DNA from: Phycisphaerales bacterium
GTDB taxonomy: Bacteria; Planctomycetota; Phycisphaerae; Phycisphaerales; SM1A02
Assembly: GCA_009692045.1 (NCBI GenBank)
Contig: SIAA01000003.1
Span: 1 to 64,000, forward strand
Reading direction: 5' to 3'
DNA length: 64,000 bases
The position numbers and the translations under genes are program-made. Position 1 is the stretch's first letter, and each line of letters begins with the position of its first letter. Below are positions 14,645-21,361 of the stretch, one piece after another. The notes beneath the pieces are model-generated. The model did no database searches. It saw only the letters and a program-made list of their open reading frames with translations, and had not been told where the DNA came from.

Positions 14645-16531
14645 CTAGTTCCGCGCTCGAGAGAGAGCGTCTAGAACCTGAGCGGGCGTGTAAGCATCGG
14701 CCTTGAACACTTCGACCCCGTTGGTGTCAATGATCACCAGCAAGGGAATGGTGATGCGTCCGGCGGCAGCCAGTCTGGCACTTCTGTCGGGCAGGCCCTT
14801 GGTGAGGTCAACCTTGAAGGGAACTACACCATCTGCCTGAAGTGCCTGCGCCACCGCATCGGTATGCAGCACGGTCGCTTCGAGGAACTTGCAGTTTCCG
14901 CACCACTCTGCGGTGAAGTCGAGTACCACCACCTTGTGGGCCTGCAGAGCCTCGGCTTCGCGCTCGGTGGTCCAGTGCACCCAATCAACGGGCTCGTAGG
15001 TGGCGATGAAGCCGAGACCGATGCTCATGGCACAAATGATCACGCCCACCGAGGTGAATACCACTTTGTTCAGGGGAGTGCGCGCTATCCAGAGTGTTCG
15101 CCACGCCATCCAAGCGCCGGCGCTGGCGGCGATGGTGGCAATCACCCACCAATGAATGGCACTAGCTTCTTCGAGGTAGCCGTTGATGCCACTGCCAATG
15201 AAGTAGACCGCCCCGGCTAGGAGAAGCAATCCCATCACTTGTTTGACTACTTCGCTGGCGGCTCCGGCGCGGGGCATGCGAGAAACGAGAGTGGGGAACG
15301 CCGCAAGAACTACGTAGGGTGTGGCCATTCCCAGTCCGATTGCCCCGAATACGCTCAGGATTGTCAGGGCCGATCCACTGCTAGCGGCCCAGCCCGCGGC
15401 GGTTCCCATGAAGGGCGCGGTACACGGAGTGGACAGCACGGCGGTCATCACGCCAAAGAGAAACGAACCTCCATAGGTGTCGTGTTTGGGTTCGATGGCT
15501 TGAATCCAGTTGGGGAGCCGCATGGAGAAGAATCCCGCCATGCCGATGGCCATGATGGCGATGAAGATTCCCATGACGATAGGAAAGGGGCGGTACTGAA
15601 ACAGGGCGTTCGCCGTGTCGAATCCGGTCACGGTGACGATCAGTGACCCCAACAGAAGCCAGAAGGCGATCACGCCCGTGCCCATAGCCAATCCCAAGTT
15701 CAGGCAGCGCGATCGATTCCCCGCGGATCGGGCCAGACCCATGATCTTGAGCGGGATCAGGGGAAGCACGCAGGGGGTGAAGTTGAGGAGCGCACCCCCG
15801 ATGGCCGCGACAAGCATTAGCAGCAGCAGACCGACGCCCGACGAGTCGATGTTGAACTTCCAGCCGAGAATGTCGAAGGGCACATCGGCATCGGGGGCTT
15901 CTCCCTCGTGGATGCGGGAGTACACCCCCACATCGAACTTGGCGAACGAGTCGGCGGTCGCACCCGTGGTAGCGCTGCGGTCGACCGTAATCGACAGAGG
16001 GAGTTCGACCGATGCCGGGGCCTTGCAGGTCGAGTCATCACAGGCCTGGAACTCAACTCTTATGGTGCAGGTAGCAATGCCGGTTGCGTCCGCTGCCAAC
16101 GACGCGGGGATATAGATGAGGGGCGATCCCTCGAATACCGCGAACACCCGCTTGCCCTCACCGAAGTCCGCCTCGACTCGGTGAAACTCGGGCCACTGGG
16201 CAAAGTTGAGATTGAGGGTCATCTGCGAGGGCGCGCCCACGATCGATACCACGGTGCGGACACCATCAGCGAAACCATCCACATCAGCAGGGAGCGCGCG
16301 GTCATCAGTCCAGATATGCCAACCCTTTTGGATACGAAGTTGAATCGCCAGAGGGACATCAGCGCCCGGTGGCGCGGCAGATGTTGAAACGATCAGCTCG
16401 GCCTCGACCACATCGCGCGAATCGAAGTAGGAGCCCCTTCCCTGCTGATTTGCGGGGGCAGCACCGGCAAGGCAGAGACTTAGCACTGCGGCAAGCCAAG
16501 CACAGATTCTGCGCGGCGAGGGGGATTTCAT
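14645..16531 (-). CDS. dsbD: Thiol:disulfide interchange protein (DsbD-type)
   Basis: Inner-membrane reductant conduit that carries electrons from cytosolic thioredoxin to periplasmic acceptors such as cytochrome c maturation proteins. There is a signal peptide (1-27) and an N-terminal DsbD alpha-like domain with a cysteine pair (C164, C169). Eight or so membrane helices carry C254 (FTPCVLP) and C370 (LSTPCTAP), the CcdA-type redox pair. The C-terminal thioredoxin domain has EWCGNC (C544, C547). I start at the ATG at 16531, three codons inside the longest frame, because KSPSPRR makes a good n-region. Its presence suits the many c-type cytochromes here, which need cysteine reduction outside the cytoplasm. 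Confidence 0.93.
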   Translation of the reverse strand: MKSPSPRRICAWLAAVLSLCLAGAAPANQQGRGSYFDSRDVVEAELIVSTSAAPPGADVPLAIQLRIQKGWHIWTDDRALPADVDGFADGVRTVVSIVGAPSQMTLNLNFAQWPEFHRVEADFGEGKRVFAVFEGSPLIYIPASLAADATGIATCTIRVEFQACDDSTCKAPASVELPLSITVDRSATTGATADSFAKFDVGVYSRIHEGEAPDADVPFDILGWKFNIDSSGVGLLLLMLVAAIGGALLNFTPCVLPLIPLKIMGLARSAGNRSRCLNLGLAMGTGVIAFWLLLGSLIVTVTGFDTANALFQYRPFPIVMGIFIAIMAIGMAGFFSMRLPNWIQAIEPKHDTYGGSFLFGVMTAVLSTPCTAPFMGTAAGWAASSGSALTILSVFGAIGLGMATPYVVLAAFPTLVSRMPRAGAASEVVKQVMGLLLLAGAVYFIGSGINGYLEEASAIHWWVIATIAASAGAWMAWRTLWIARTPLNKVVFTSVGVIICAMSIGLGFIATYEPVDWVHWTTEREAEALQAHKVVVLDFTAEWCGNCKFLEATVLHTDAVAQALQADGVVPFKVDLTKGLPDRSARLAAAGRITIPLLVIIDTNGVEVFKADAYTPAQVLDALSRARN

Positions 16532-16577
16532 CGGTAGCACGCCATCATTCTACGAGGCATTGTTAGAGAGTTTTGCA

Positions 16578-16606
16578 GCGACAGGATGAACAGAATCTGC
16601 TAGTAT
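16578..16606 (+). promoter_or_regulatory. Candidate nusA-operon promoter with extended -10
   Basis: GCGACA (16578-16583) is followed after 17 nt by TAGTAT (16601-16606), preceded by TGC to give an extended -10-like TGCTAGTAT. This would start the transcript near 16613, just ahead of the structured leader. It is assigned by eye from consensus. Confidence 0.4.
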
Positions 16607-16676
16607 CCACGACTCGGCGGTTTGCCGAAATCGTTCCGGCAGATGGCCTGTCGGATGTGTCCGTCCGTCCCCCTCT

Positions 16677-16960
16677 GACTTGGAAGACCAATATGAGACT
16701 CAAGAACTCGCAGTCCAAGTCAATCCCAGACCTTCTATGACGCGCGTCTGCGTCATCCTCGGTTGGGATTCATCCGCCGTAGCGGCACGGGTCGCTACCC
16801 AAGGCAGGAGTGTTTCGATGCGGTAACCACCGCAGCGAACCTGATGTTCTGCCTTGAGCCACTGTTCTTTAGTGGCGCGAGTGCAGAAGGGATCAGACGG
16901 GCCACGACCGCTTCATTAGCGACCGTGGCTTGCTTGTTTCATGCGGCAGAACTTGCCGCA
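16677..16960 (+). ncRNA. Highly structured RNA leader upstream of nusA
   Basis: The 519 nt between dsbD and nusA hold no convincing gene but many perfect stems. These are: GACTTGGA/TCCAAGTC (16677-16684 with 16714-16721); AATCCC/GGGATT (16722-16727 with 16765-16770) enclosing ATGACGC/GCGTCAT (16737-16743 with 16750-16756); CAAGGCAG/CTGCCTTG (16800-16807 with 16849-16856) enclosing GCGGT-AACC-ACCGC (16820-16833); GCCACT/AGTGGC (16858-16876); GCCACG-AC-CGCT-TCATT-AGCG-AC-CGTGGC (16901-16929); TGCGGCA/TGCCGCA (16942-16960). An A/C-rich unstructured stretch then leads to nusA. I see no tRNA T-loop, tmRNA, RNase P or SRP RNA core. It may be a cis-acting leader or a separate small RNA. Confidence 0.55.
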
Positions 16961-17059
16961 GGTTTCGCTCCGCTGACTCGCGCCTCGCCTATTTGTCTCT
17001 GCCTCAAAAAACTAAACAACCAAACAACTAATCAACCTCGCAATCACAAGGAACCAGAC

Positions 17060-18379
17060 ATGAACTCAGAAACACTCCGCATCATCGATTCCATCGCCCG
17101 CGAGCGCAACATCGATCGGCTGGTGCTCATTCAGGACTTGGAGCAGGCCATGTGCAGCGCTGCTCGCAAGCACTTTGACAGTCTTGATCTGGAGGAGTTC
17201 GGTTGTGAAATGGATCGTCTGAGTGGCCGCATCGTGCTCTGGCGTAATCTGGAGGATGGCGGTCGGGAGGAGATTCCCCTGGAGCGCTTGGGGCGAATCC
17301 CCGCGCAGACCGCAAAGCAGGTGATGATTCAGCGCTTCCGTGAGGATGAGCGCGCCAGCCTGCTCGAGGAGTACTCGAAGCGGCAAGGTGAGTTGGTCAC
17401 GGGCGCTGCCCAGCGTTACGAGGGCAACGCGCTAATCGTTCAAATCGAAAGAGCCGAGGGATTCATGCCGCGCAGCGAGCAGATTCCTGGCGAGCAGTTT
17501 CAGCCCGGTGATCGGGTGCGTTGCCTTCTGCTCGATGTTCGAGATGCAGGGCATCAGGTGAAAATCGTGCTCTCTCGCGCCCACCCCGACTTCATCCGGC
17601 GCCTATTCGAAGCCGAGGTGCCTGAGGTCTCGGAGCGAACCATTGAGATCAAGGCCATGGCTCGCGAGCCCGGATTTCGCACCAAGCTGGCTGTATCCAG
17701 CGTTGACTCCAAAGTTGATGCTGTGGGCGCCTGTGTTGGTGTCAGAGGCAGTCGAATCCGCAACATCGTCGATGAACTCGGGGGCGAGAAAATTGACATC
17801 GTGAGATGGAACGAGTCCAGTCAGGTGCTCATCGCCAATGCCCTCAAGCCGGCGGAAGTGCAGGAGGTCAGCCTCTGTTTCGAACTGGGTCGAGCCACCA
17901 TCATCGTGCGCGATGATCAACTCTCGCTTGCGATCGGCAAGCGCGGGCAGAATGTTCGGTTGGCAGCGCGGCTCACCGGCTGGGATGTTGACATTCTGAC
18001 GCCGCCGGAGTTTGAGCGCGGACTCGAGGTTCTTGAATCAACCGTGCGGACGGTCACCGGTGTGACTGATGAGATGCTCGATCGTATGGGAGCTCTGGGA
18101 ATCATCAGCGTCTTCGATGTGGAAGAGGTCGGAGAGCCAGTCCTGGTTCAGGAACTGGGCATGACCCAGGAGATGGCGGTTGAGGTCGTAACTACCTGCA
18201 TGGAACGCGCCAAGACTCAGGCTGAGGAAATGGAGAAGGCTCGAGCGGAGCAGGCTGCTTCCGCAGAGGGCATGCGGGCCGATGCTGTTCTCGGTCGCAT
18301 GCGTGATGGGGCAGCCGTTGAAACTGATGCGGCCTCCGAGGCTGCTGCGGACACGATTCTTGGCGGGGGTAACAACTAG
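17060..18379 (+). CDS. nusA: Transcription termination/antitermination factor NusA
   Basis: RNA polymerase-binding factor for pausing, termination and antitermination. I use the ATG at 17060 (439 residues), which gives the classical N-terminus beginning MNSETLRIIDSIARE and has AAGGA ahead of it. The longer open frame to 16763 is low-quality and lies over the RNA leader. The order is N-terminal RNAP-binding domain (about 1-120), S1 (about 130-200), two KH domains (about 200-340, with the second KH core LAIGKRGQNVRLA) and a short helix-hairpin-helix-like segment with an acidic, Ala/Glu-rich tail. rimP, which precedes nusA in many bacteria, is not found directly upstream. Confidence 0.95.
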   Translation: MNSETLRIIDSIARERNIDRLVLIQDLEQAMCSAARKHFDSLDLEEFGCEMDRLSGRIVLWRNLEDGGREEIPLERLGRIPAQTAKQVMIQRFREDERASLLEEYSKRQGELVTGAAQRYEGNALIVQIERAEGFMPRSEQIPGEQFQPGDRVRCLLLDVRDAGHQVKIVLSRAHPDFIRRLFEAEVPEVSERTIEIKAMAREPGFRTKLAVSSVDSKVDAVGACVGVRGSRIRNIVDELGGEKIDIVRWNESSQVLIANALKPAEVQEVSLCFELGRATIIVRDDQLSLAIGKRGQNVRLAARLTGWDVDILTPPEFERGLEVLESTVRTVTGVTDEMLDRMGALGIISVFDVEEVGEPVLVQELGMTQEMAVEVVTTCMERAKTQAEEMEKARAEQAASAEGMRADAVLGRMRDGAAVETDAASEAAADTILGGGNN

Positions 18380-18415: not shown

Positions 18416-21361
18416 ATGGAGACCAGTTTGGCGACTAAGAAACCGCGAATCTCACAGCTTGCCAAGGACCTTGGAGTCAACTTCAAGGACATCCTGGCGA
18501 AGTGCCGCGCCGAAGGAGTAGAGGAAGTATCCGAGAGCACCACTCATCAGGCGACTATCAGCGCCGGACTGGCCGCCACCATCCGGGATTGGTTCAGTAC
18601 AGGTTCGGTCAGCACGGCCGTTGAGACTGCGGAAAAGATAGATATCGAGCAGGCCAAGGCACGCGCAGAGAAGCCCGCAAAGAAGGCAAAGAAGAAGTCG
18701 ACCACGGATGCTGAGACTGACAAAGAAGTTCACGCGCCGGTGGCCGTTGCGCCTTCGCCCATCATCGTAGATGCCCCAACAGCCTCGGCAGTACTGCCGC
18801 CGCCCGCCGCTGAAAAATCTGTGTCGACAACCCCGGCCCATTCGGTGACAGGTGTGAGTCCAGCCAGAGCAACTGCAAAAGCAGCCGCGTCCATCGCTCC
18901 GGCACCAAGGGTGTCGATTCCAGCGCCATTGACCGGAGCGGCTGCCTCATCCGCTGCCGCATCTGCGACTTCAGCACCAGTCTCTGCGCCGAGCGCTAAG
19001 GTTTCTCATGATCGGCCCGACTCCCATGCATCGGATCACGGCGGATCAAGTTCGGAGATCGGCCGCGTCCCCCACAGACGACCTCTGATTCAGCCCCATC
19101 ATGTGGCTCCGCCGGTAATGAACAAACCAGTGAGACCCGCTATTGTGGCGCCTGCGGGCGAGCGTCTCGTCAAACCGGAGAAGACTCGAGTCAGCGGCCC
19201 TAATGTCATTCGCATCGAACATCCCGAGCCGGTGCGGGAGCCACGGCGGTCACCACCCGGAGCAGGACCGAGTTTTGGAACCGGATTGCCGCCCCGCGGT
19301 GGTGGTGCGGGAGTCAGCCGATCACCCGTCGTTGGACGGGACTCAGATCGCTCTCGTGGCGGAGTCAGGCCTGGGGTAGCCGGTAGGGGTGGAACAGCCC
19401 GCCCAGGGAAGCCTGAAGAAGCTGGTCGGAGTGAACCGTGGCGACCCACAGACATTGCTGAACGCGACACTCGACTTGCCCATTCGGGTGGATACTTCAG
19501 GATTCATCGCAGCGGCGGTGGCAAACGAGGCGGAGCGACAACCGCTCGACCTGCCGTTACCAAGGCGACGGGTCCGGTCCGAATCTCCGCGCCATTCACG
19601 GTGAAGGAGTTGAGCGCTGCGACTGGAGTGAAGGCGGGTGAGATTCTGGGGAAGTTGCTGCTCGCGGGCGCACCTACCACGATCAACAGTGTGATCGATC
19701 CAGCAATGGCAACTGAGGTGATGGCGAAGCTGCGGGTGGAGATCGAGGTCGCCGCAGAGCAGACCGGCGCCGCTGCCGTCGAGATGCGGCGCAACAGTCG
19801 CGCTAGAACCGATGAGCGGCCGCGATCACCAGTGGTGACTATCCTCGGTCATGTCGATCATGGCAAGACAAGTCTTCTTGATCGCATTCGCAATGCCAAT
19901 GTTGCCCAAGGCGAGGCAGGCGGCATCACTCAGGCAACCAGCGCTTTCAGCGTGCAGGTCAAGGTCGCAGGCACCGATCGACGAGTCACATTTATTGATA
20001 CCCCTGGGCATGAGGCATTCACGGCCATGCGAGCCCGCGGTGCCCGTGTGACTGACATCGTTGTTCTGGTAGTCGCCGCGGACGATGGTGTGATGCCGCA
20101 GACCGTTGAGAGCATCAAGCACGCCAAGGCCGCGGGAGTCCCCATTGTTGTGGCGTTGAACAAGATCGACAAGCCTGAGGCAACGGAGGCCAATCTGCAG
20201 CGGATCTTTGGGCAACTTGCCGAGCACGAGCTCACTCCTACAGACTGGTCGGGCAAGACTGAACTGGCGCGTACCAGTGCCACCAAGGGCATCGGGATCG
20301 AAAACCTCTTGGAGATCCTAGCTCTCGAAGCAGAGGTTCTCGCTCTGAAGGGGGACTTCGCGGGGTCTGCACAGGGGACAGTTCTGGAAGCTGAACTGGT
20401 TGAGGGGCGAGGCGCGGTAGCTCGAGTCTTGGTGCAGGAAGGGGTGCTCCGCAAAGGTGACTTTGTCGCCATCGGTCGCGCATTCGGCCGAGTACGCGAC
20501 ATCGTCGACGATCGCGGTAATCGAGTTCTCGAGGCAGGACCCTCGACTCCGGTGGCAATCTCCGGACTCGACGCGCTGCCCGATGCCGGTGACGAATTCA
20601 CGGTGGTGGAGGATCTCCGCACGGCGGAGAAGGCAGCCATGGAGATTCGCCAGACTGAGCGCCAGCGGGAACTAGCCACACCGAAGATCACCCTCGACAA
20701 TATCTTCGAGCACCTTGGCAAGAGCAAGCAGAAGAGCCTGCCCGTGGTCGTGAAGGCCGATGTGCAGGGCTCGGTGGAAACGCTGCGATCGCTACTGCCG
20801 GGGATCAAGAATGGCGATATCTCACTCTCCGTCAAGCACTGTGCCGTGGGTGGCATCAACGAAAGCGATGTTCAACTTGCCGCGGCAACGGGAGCCATCG
20901 TGGTGGGATTCAATGTCACGACTATGTCCAAGGCACGCGCCCTGGCTGAGCAGAAAAAAGTTGACATCCGCCTCTACGAGGTGATCTACCACCTGACCGA
21001 AGATCTGGAGAAAGCGGTTGCCGGCTTGCTCGAGCCCGAAATCAGGCTGGAAGTGCTGGGACACGCGGAAGTCCGAGCGGTGTTCCGCATCTCCAAGGTG
21101 GGCGCCATCGCGGGTTGCTACATCACTGATGGCGTTGTGGAGCGCAACGCGCAGATTCGTGTTACTCGCGCGGGAATCGTGATCGAGAAGGACCGGCGGC
21201 TGGAGCAGCTCAAGCGCTTCAAGGACGATGCCAAGGAAGTTCGTACTGGTATGGAGTGCGGCATGAAGATTGCCGGTTACGACAACATTCGCGAGGGTGA
21301 TGTCCTGGAGTGCTATAAGTCAACCGTGGTGCCTCGTAGCGGATCGAAGTCTGATGCGTAG
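18416..21361 (+). CDS. infB: Translation initiation factor IF-2
   Basis: GTPase that places initiator tRNA on the ribosome. It has an N-terminal IF2_N domain (about 5-55), then about 280 residues of low-complexity Ala/Pro/Arg/Gly-rich linker. A second IF2_N-like segment (about 390-450) is followed by the G domain with GHVDHGKTS, DTPGHEAF and NKID, then domains II-IV. At 981 residues it is a long form. The ATG at 18416 opens the frame, but TTG at 18428 gives the usual M-A-T-K-K start and has GGAG 6 nt ahead of it, so it may be the real start. It lies 36 nt after nusA and overlaps rbfA by 8 nt. Confidence 0.96.
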   Translation: METSLATKKPRISQLAKDLGVNFKDILAKCRAEGVEEVSESTTHQATISAGLAATIRDWFSTGSVSTAVETAEKIDIEQAKARAEKPAKKAKKKSTTDAETDKEVHAPVAVAPSPIIVDAPTASAVLPPPAAEKSVSTTPAHSVTGVSPARATAKAAASIAPAPRVSIPAPLTGAAASSAAASATSAPVSAPSAKVSHDRPDSHASDHGGSSSEIGRVPHRRPLIQPHHVAPPVMNKPVRPAIVAPAGERLVKPEKTRVSGPNVIRIEHPEPVREPRRSPPGAGPSFGTGLPPRGGGAGVSRSPVVGRDSDRSRGGVRPGVAGRGGTARPGKPEEAGRSEPWRPTDIAERDTRLAHSGGYFRIHRSGGGKRGGATTARPAVTKATGPVRISAPFTVKELSAATGVKAGEILGKLLLAGAPTTINSVIDPAMATEVMAKLRVEIEVAAEQTGAAAVEMRRNSRARTDERPRSPVVTILGHVDHGKTSLLDRIRNANVAQGEAGGITQATSAFSVQVKVAGTDRRVTFIDTPGHEAFTAMRARGARVTDIVVLVVAADDGVMPQTVESIKHAKAAGVPIVVALNKIDKPEATEANLQRIFGQLAEHELTPTDWSGKTELARTSATKGIGIENLLEILALEAEVLALKGDFAGSAQGTVLEAELVEGRGAVARVLVQEGVLRKGDFVAIGRAFGRVRDIVDDRGNRVLEAGPSTPVAISGLDALPDAGDEFTVVEDLRTAEKAAMEIRQTERQRELATPKITLDNIFEHLGKSKQKSLPVVVKADVQGSVETLRSLLPGIKNGDISLSVKHCAVGGINESDVQLAAATGAIVVGFNVTTMSKARALAEQKKVDIRLYEVIYHLTEDLEKAVAGLLEPEIRLEVLGHAEVRAVFRISKVGAIAGCYITDGVVERNAQIRVTRAGIVIEKDRRLEQLKRFKDDAKEVRTGMECGMKIAGYDNIREGDVLECYKSTVVPRSGSKSDA

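Follow-up and report, generated by a model that had tools for sequence, protein, structure and literature searches.

What is the densely structured stretch at positions 16607-17059, directly ahead of nusA, in the window analysed here (the whole stretch of DNA, 64,000 nucleotides)? An initial annotation had read it as an RNA leader regulating nusA or, alternatively, as a separate small RNA, and had counted translation within the stretch as evidence against its proposal. We addressed this question by combining folding, searches for known RNAs and a comparison with the corresponding regions of related genomes.

The region upstream of nusA-infB

The stretch falls within the intergenic region 16541-17059, which separates a divergent DsbD-like gene from nusA, with infB downstream:

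14645-16540, minus strand: DsbD-like thiol:disulfide gene, divergent from nusA
17060-18379, plus strand: nusA, 79-83% identical to the nusA of the closest other genera in the family
18416-21361, plus strand: infB (translation initiation factor IF2), an ORF of 981 aa named from its sequence and its position in the operon

The divergent dsbD-nusA order is retained in most of the closest genomes. With nusA lying directly 3' of the intergenic region, the operon does not begin with rimP, and RimP_N gave no match in the whole assembly (95% complete), as compared to matches in 10 of 14 control genomes; RimP may have been lost, or be very divergent, in the lineage of this assembly. A rimP remnant was considered as the source of the stretch and rejected, RimP_N being absent from the assembly and the frames being short and devoid of protein conservation.

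The stems described for 16607-17059 are present, and they form a structure beyond chance: the minimum free energy of the stretch was -172.3 kcal/mol, versus -144.8 +/- 6.0 kcal/mol for dinucleotide shuffles (z -4.6, 0/100). The core, 16640-16965, reached a z of -5.9 against dinucleotide shuffles, and the mean z over 20 leaders of the order was -4.2, indicating that this stability is general. A scan against Rfam 15 yielded no family at the gathering threshold in the window, with matches at E<=5 in the stretch at chance level only, and nothing credible up to E 0.5 in the leaders of 20 relatives. ARAGORN detected neither tRNA nor tmRNA in the window, and RNase P RNA was rejected as an identity, as it sits elsewhere in the genome. 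Given the shuffle z-scores, the Rfam and ARAGORN negatives and the separate location of RNase P RNA, the structure is real and is not a known RNA, as the initial annotation had proposed.

A DNA search with the leader among 100 relatives returned only short chance matches, besides a 29-nt piece before nusA in one genome, and leaders were therefore gathered via the NusA protein. The resulting set comprised 190 nusA upstream regions, counted by genome and hence without phylogenetic independence (many of the genomes being MAGs): 110 from the same family (f1), 40 from five other families of Phycisphaerales (f2-f6), 20 from other orders of the class and 20 from other classes of the phylum. The spacing between leader elements was too variable for a single whole-leader alignment. 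Compared element by element, the leaders share a layout that recurs across the order Phycisphaerales, and the following order of elements is well supported by this comparison: a promoter-like box, a 5' hairpin, uORF1, an overlapping uORF2, a Shine-Dalgarno sequence (SD) with a Met-X-stop minigene, a terminator-like hairpin and nusA. In the window, these and the associated pairings are assigned as follows:

16601-16606, plus strand: putative -10 box TAGTAT in an extended -10 context (TGCTAGTAT), from the sequence and from relatives
16636-16654, plus strand: predicted 5' hairpin CCGGCAG-ATGGC-CTGTCGG, near the transcript start
16661-16665, plus strand: CCGTC, 5' arm of the putative long-range helix P1, upstream of uORF1
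16693-16740, plus strand: uORF1, 15 aa (MRLKNSQSKSIPDLL, then stop), its TGA overlapping the uORF2 start (ATGA)
16737-16826, plus strand: uORF2, 29 aa (MTRVCVILGWDSSAVAARVATQGRSVSMR, then stop), ending with the minigene in the same frame
16737-16756, plus strand: predicted hairpin ATGACGC-GCGTCT-GCGTCAT, pairing the uORF2 start codon
16806-16810, plus strand: AGGAG, Shine-Dalgarno sequence of the minigene by its sequence, 7 nt before the ATG
16814-16839, plus strand: predicted hairpin TTCG-A-TGCGGT-AACC-ACCGCA-G-CGAA, with codon 2 and the stop of the minigene in its 5' arm and loop
16818-16826, plus strand: two-codon ORF (minigene) ATG CGG TAA, in frame with uORF2 (leader L033)
16896-16900, plus strand: GACGG, 3' arm of P1, sharing bases with the foot of the terminator stem
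16898-16932, plus strand: terminator-like hairpin CGGGCCACG..CGTGGCTTG (16898-16939 with its tail)
16930-16939, plus strand: U-rich tail TTGCTTGTTT, after the hairpin

The short reading frames, as well as the nature of the best stem as a conserved terminator, had gone unnoticed in the initial annotation. With two short overlapping frames and a conserved SD-ATG-NNN-stop inside the structured region, the objection from translation applies in part: judging by these frames, the stretch is probably translated in some of its length. The proposal of a regulatory leader of nusA stands, in view of the order-wide layout and of the covariation described below, but not that of an element made of RNA alone.

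A two-codon ORF ahead of the terminator

In the 330 nt upstream of nusA, 58 of the 150 leaders of the order carry the strict form of the minigene (GGAG-N3..10-ATG-NNN-stop), where dinucleotide shuffles predict 0.55, and 96/150 carry a loose form, admitting other SD cores and GTG or TTG starts, where 4.1 are predicted. Both forms were nearly absent from the controls, i.e., the reverse strand of the 150 leaders (strict 0, loose 2) and the region 500-800 nt upstream (n=110; strict 0, loose 2). Moreover, among SD-preceded ATG frames, 68 of 114 in the order had exactly two codons, versus none of 23 on the reverse strand, and a second set of 71 GTDB loci, in part the same as the first, contained 35 strict matches versus 0 on the reverse strand. 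Beyond the order, the strict minigene was present in 5 of 20 leaders from other orders of the class, a few leaders there having SD-ATG-stop, and the 20 leaders from other classes of the phylum gave no two-codon matches. A whole-genome count of the pattern with a TGA stop gave 42 occurrences (about one per 52 kb with both strands counted), and 16 for the pattern read backwards, so that chance would not be expected to place a match in any given leader. Many leaders lack the strict form, some genera having SD-TTG/CTG-stop or no recognised SD.

Variants were also seen at the place of the two-codon ORF. Two leaders from other orders of the class (L233 and L234) carry an SD followed by ATG-TAG, with the start directly before the stop, and some leaders of genus g39 (f1) carry SD-TTG-TAA or SD-CTG-TAG. 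Hairpins similar to that at 16814-16839 were recognised by eye at the minigene in many leaders of the order.

The minigene is tied to the frame upstream of it. In f1 and in many f2-f6 leaders, uORF2 is in frame with the minigene, and the open run of this frame upstream has a median length of 57.5 codons, versus 26 and 29 for the other two frames, so that uORF2 and the minigene usually share frame and stop. In one f2 leader (L164), the uORF2 stop instead overlaps the start of the minigene as ATGA.

The terminator-like hairpin and a proposed control of readthrough

The hairpin at 16901-16929 has 10 bp around a symmetric AC/AC loop (GCCACG-AC-CGCT-TCATT-AGCG-AC-CGTGGC), exactly as first described, and is contained in the larger hairpin 16898-16932, whose stem ends in G-U pairs in the window and whose U tract is interrupted there. 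When 23 such hairpins from f1, f2, f5 and f6 were aligned, RNAalifold returned a stem of 11 pairs, 9 of which were changed on both sides. Paired cells made up 93.3% of this alignment, versus 34-44% for slid registers, a percentage favoured by the selection of the 23 by eye as hairpins; the covariation score was 0.585 versus 0.26 in shuffles. More broadly, a scan rewarding T-rich tails picked out a candidate hairpin with CA[CT]G or GTGGG in the 5' arm from 147 of 170 leaders; a minority of these candidates are clearly not the terminator. The 12 nt after the hairpin held a mean of 5.7 T versus a background of 2.5, the mean being biased upward by this preference of the scan.

The stem motif in the order is GG[GA][CT]CA[CT]G..CGTGGCC, with GGGCC..GGCTT in the window. 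Other orders of the class have GTGGG..CCCAC and a T-run, closer still to the GGGc..gCCC of the rimP-leader, and terminators resembling the latter also precede nusA in some other classes of the phylum. In the comparison of the upstream regions, the 16901-16929 stem belongs to a conserved hairpin resembling an intrinsic terminator, an attenuator of the rimP-leader kind.

The covarying substitutions for which the initial annotation would have searched relatives were found in this stem and, in addition, in helix P1. In an ungapped test over 17 genus groups, P1 arms paired better within genomes (mean score 19.0) than across genera (16.1 +/- 0.67), with a fraction of permutations as good of 0.00025, and arms are exchanged among genera as matching pairs (CCGTCTCGG/CCGAGACGG, CCGTGCC/GGCACGG and CCGGTCTGCG/CGCAGGCCGG). 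This signal was clear in the ungapped test but weak in a gapped test of duplex energy. In the window P1 amounts to 5 bp (CCGTC/GACGG), pairs no better than across genera and is insufficient alone.

The reading we prefer, and in which we place about even confidence, takes the stretch for a 5' leader on the nusA-infB mRNA that acts as a translation-coupled transcription attenuator, with readthrough set jointly by NusA and by ribosomes occupying the minigene. Ribosomes would load at uORF1 or straight onto the strong SD, would terminate at the minigene stop and could re-initiate there, since the SD and ATG sit just before that stop. The minigene would thereby serve as a parking place for ribosomes, with an occupancy depending on initiation (through IF2, the infB product) and on recycling. 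This occupancy, with NusA on the terminator, would set the number of polymerases reading through, resulting in feedback on NusA and IF2. We infer the switch itself, the use of the minigene by ribosomes and the effect of its occupancy on termination; NusA as the protein acting on the terminator is suggested by analogy with B. subtilis, where NusA autoregulates by leader attenuation (as summarised in PMC12288461), and with the rimP-leader (PMC2965389).

How a ribosome at the minigene might reach the terminator is constrained by the following results. The minigene stop lies 24-106 nt upstream of the terminator (median 53), so that even the minimum of 24 nt is too far for direct occlusion by a ribosome on the minigene. 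No antiterminator was found in the 69 leaders in which a ribosome footprint was masked at the minigene, the masking shifting the computed terminator probability in 8 of them (3 down, 5 up), and a thermodynamic switch by ribosome masking was rejected, its effect being inconsistent in direction. Complementarity between the minigene and a terminator arm (ATGGCC and GGCCA), noted by eye in some f6 leaders, was not general and was likewise set aside.

Given this distance and the inconsistent masking, the main rival is a plain attenuator of the rimP-leader type, in which stimulation of the terminator by NusA alone would repress the nusA operon, while the uORFs and minigene would only keep ribosomes on the long leader as a guard against Rho or RNases and would have no say in termination. 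We regard this as quite possible, if short of probable. The rimP-leader is described as the most ubiquitous attenuator before rimP-nusA-infB, with a highly conserved stem motif, GGGc(...)gCCC (Naville and Gautheret 2010, PMC2965389). Our leader resembles it in having an intrinsic terminator with a G-rich 5' arm, a C-rich 3' arm and a U stretch ahead of nusA-infB, in lacking a visible antiterminator, a trait also noted for rimP-leaders, and in NusA being the suspected regulator (PMC2965389). The terminator in the leader of the B. subtilis nusA operon provides a precedent, and terminators precede nusA outside the order as well, with the two-codon ORF scarcer there or missing. On the other hand, protecting the transcript does not obviously need a two-codon ORF behind an SD, in the frame of uORF2 and across six families. 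The leader also departs from the rimP-leader in that rimP is absent and in that the terminator comes after two overlapping uORFs, a minigene of the form SD-Met-X-stop and the long-range helix P1, while no larger conserved element is reported for the general form of the rimP-leader (PMC2965389); the passage on B. subtilis in PMC12288461 makes no mention of uORFs or a minigene.

At the 5' end, transcription probably starts at about 16613. Many leaders of the family have a GCTAnAAT-type box at the corresponding position, and relatives show, by eye, a hairpin with different arms at the place of 16636-16654. A consensus scanner found no sigma-70 promoter and no terminator in the stretch, so that both assignments rest on the relatives. 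The box, the high structure and the terminator would delimit a unit of ~330 nt, as expected of a self-contained small RNA gene, promoter and terminator included, lying before nusA by chance. We consider this second option of the initial annotation improbable: a search for the leader stretch in this genome gave no second copy and no significant match elsewhere, its position before nusA is retained across the order, and no clear promoter was seen in the sequence between the terminator and nusA.

The upstream frames and the meaning of the minigene

The overlapping uORF1 is present in most near f1 genera, and the ATGACGC..GCGTC(C)AT hairpin, which in f1 coincides with the overlap of the uORF1 stop and uORF2 start, is kept in most near relatives. 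Within genera, indels were multiples of three in 23/31 cases in uORF1 and 25/40 in uORF2, versus 16/138 in the flanks (pairwise counts, not independent of one another); of the 15 exceptions in uORF2, 13 belong to genus g45, whose frames are uncertain, and g39b accounts for the remaining 2. Substitutions were spread evenly over the codon positions (423/462/453 in uORF2 and 280/285/232 in uORF1). As indels mostly keep the frame and substitutions show no codon-position bias, the frames seem to be preserved and the peptides free to vary, suggesting selection for translation rather than for a peptide. Within families f5 (L167, L174, L181) and f4 (L163, L165, L168), the uORF1 and uORF2 peptides are recognisably similar (e.g., MERKxLHAVxPVG... 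and MHxWE..SAW), unlike in f1.

The retention of the uORF frames would also fit small proteins acting in trans, but the even substitutions and the great differences in peptides between genera make this very unlikely. Equally remote is an arrest peptide, i.e., a uORF2 nascent chain ending in E-x-x-M-x that stalls at its own stop codon: many f1 leaders do end in E..M-x-stop, but in L164 the GAG of the SD is out of the minigene frame, indicating that the SD and not a Glu codon is kept there.

This brings us back to the translation-coupled attenuator and, more specifically, to the order-wide two-codon ORF as a parking site, on which ribosomes arriving from uORF2 or from the cytosol would cycle over SD-Met-X-stop, their occupancy, dependent on IF2 and recycling, deciding termination. 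We put this specific version forward tentatively, as a rather doubtful one.

Parts of such an arrangement are known from other systems. The vmlR leader of B. subtilis combines an SD and a three-codon uORF (Met-Ile-Asn) in a stem-loop with a NusA-stimulated terminator (PMC9226507). Our leader likewise has an SD and a tiny uORF in a stem-loop, then a terminator, a likeness of sequence and conservation, NusA stimulation being known for vmlR. The vmlR leader differs in being antibiotic-induced, in controlling a resistance factor, in having three codons and no uORF relay, and in using an antiterminator and anti-antiterminator; footprint masking in the 69 leaders disclosed no mutually exclusive antiterminator that a ribosome would free. 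Two-codon mini-ORFs regulate neighbouring genes in cis at axe-txe, in EHEC LEE1 and at B. subtilis ycbK (PMC8708949), and like these the nusA leader has an SD, a start, one codon and a stop in or near the leader of a gene. However, the known cases are single loci that affect how the next gene is translated or how stable its mRNA is, rather than preceding a terminator, and order-wide conservation is unreported for them (PMC8708949). The layout as a whole seems to be undescribed: a search of the open-access literature on NusA leaders, minigenes and planctomycete leaders gave no account of it.

Ahead of nusA-infB, attenuation is very widespread among bacteria, though the input that it senses is unclear. 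The attenuator proposed here is of an already known kind, and the surprising part is the conserved two-codon ORF. A strongly conserved Met-X-stop ORF before the terminator offers a concrete candidate for the input, namely ribosome initiation or recycling, which can be tested by point mutations. In the literature consulted, natural regulatory two-codon ORFs are described from few loci; conservation in six families would make this leader a good natural model for minigenes and ribosome re-initiation. If the parking-site reading is true, the cell would gauge its capacity for translation initiation via a dipeptide ORF and feed the result back on IF2 and NusA together.
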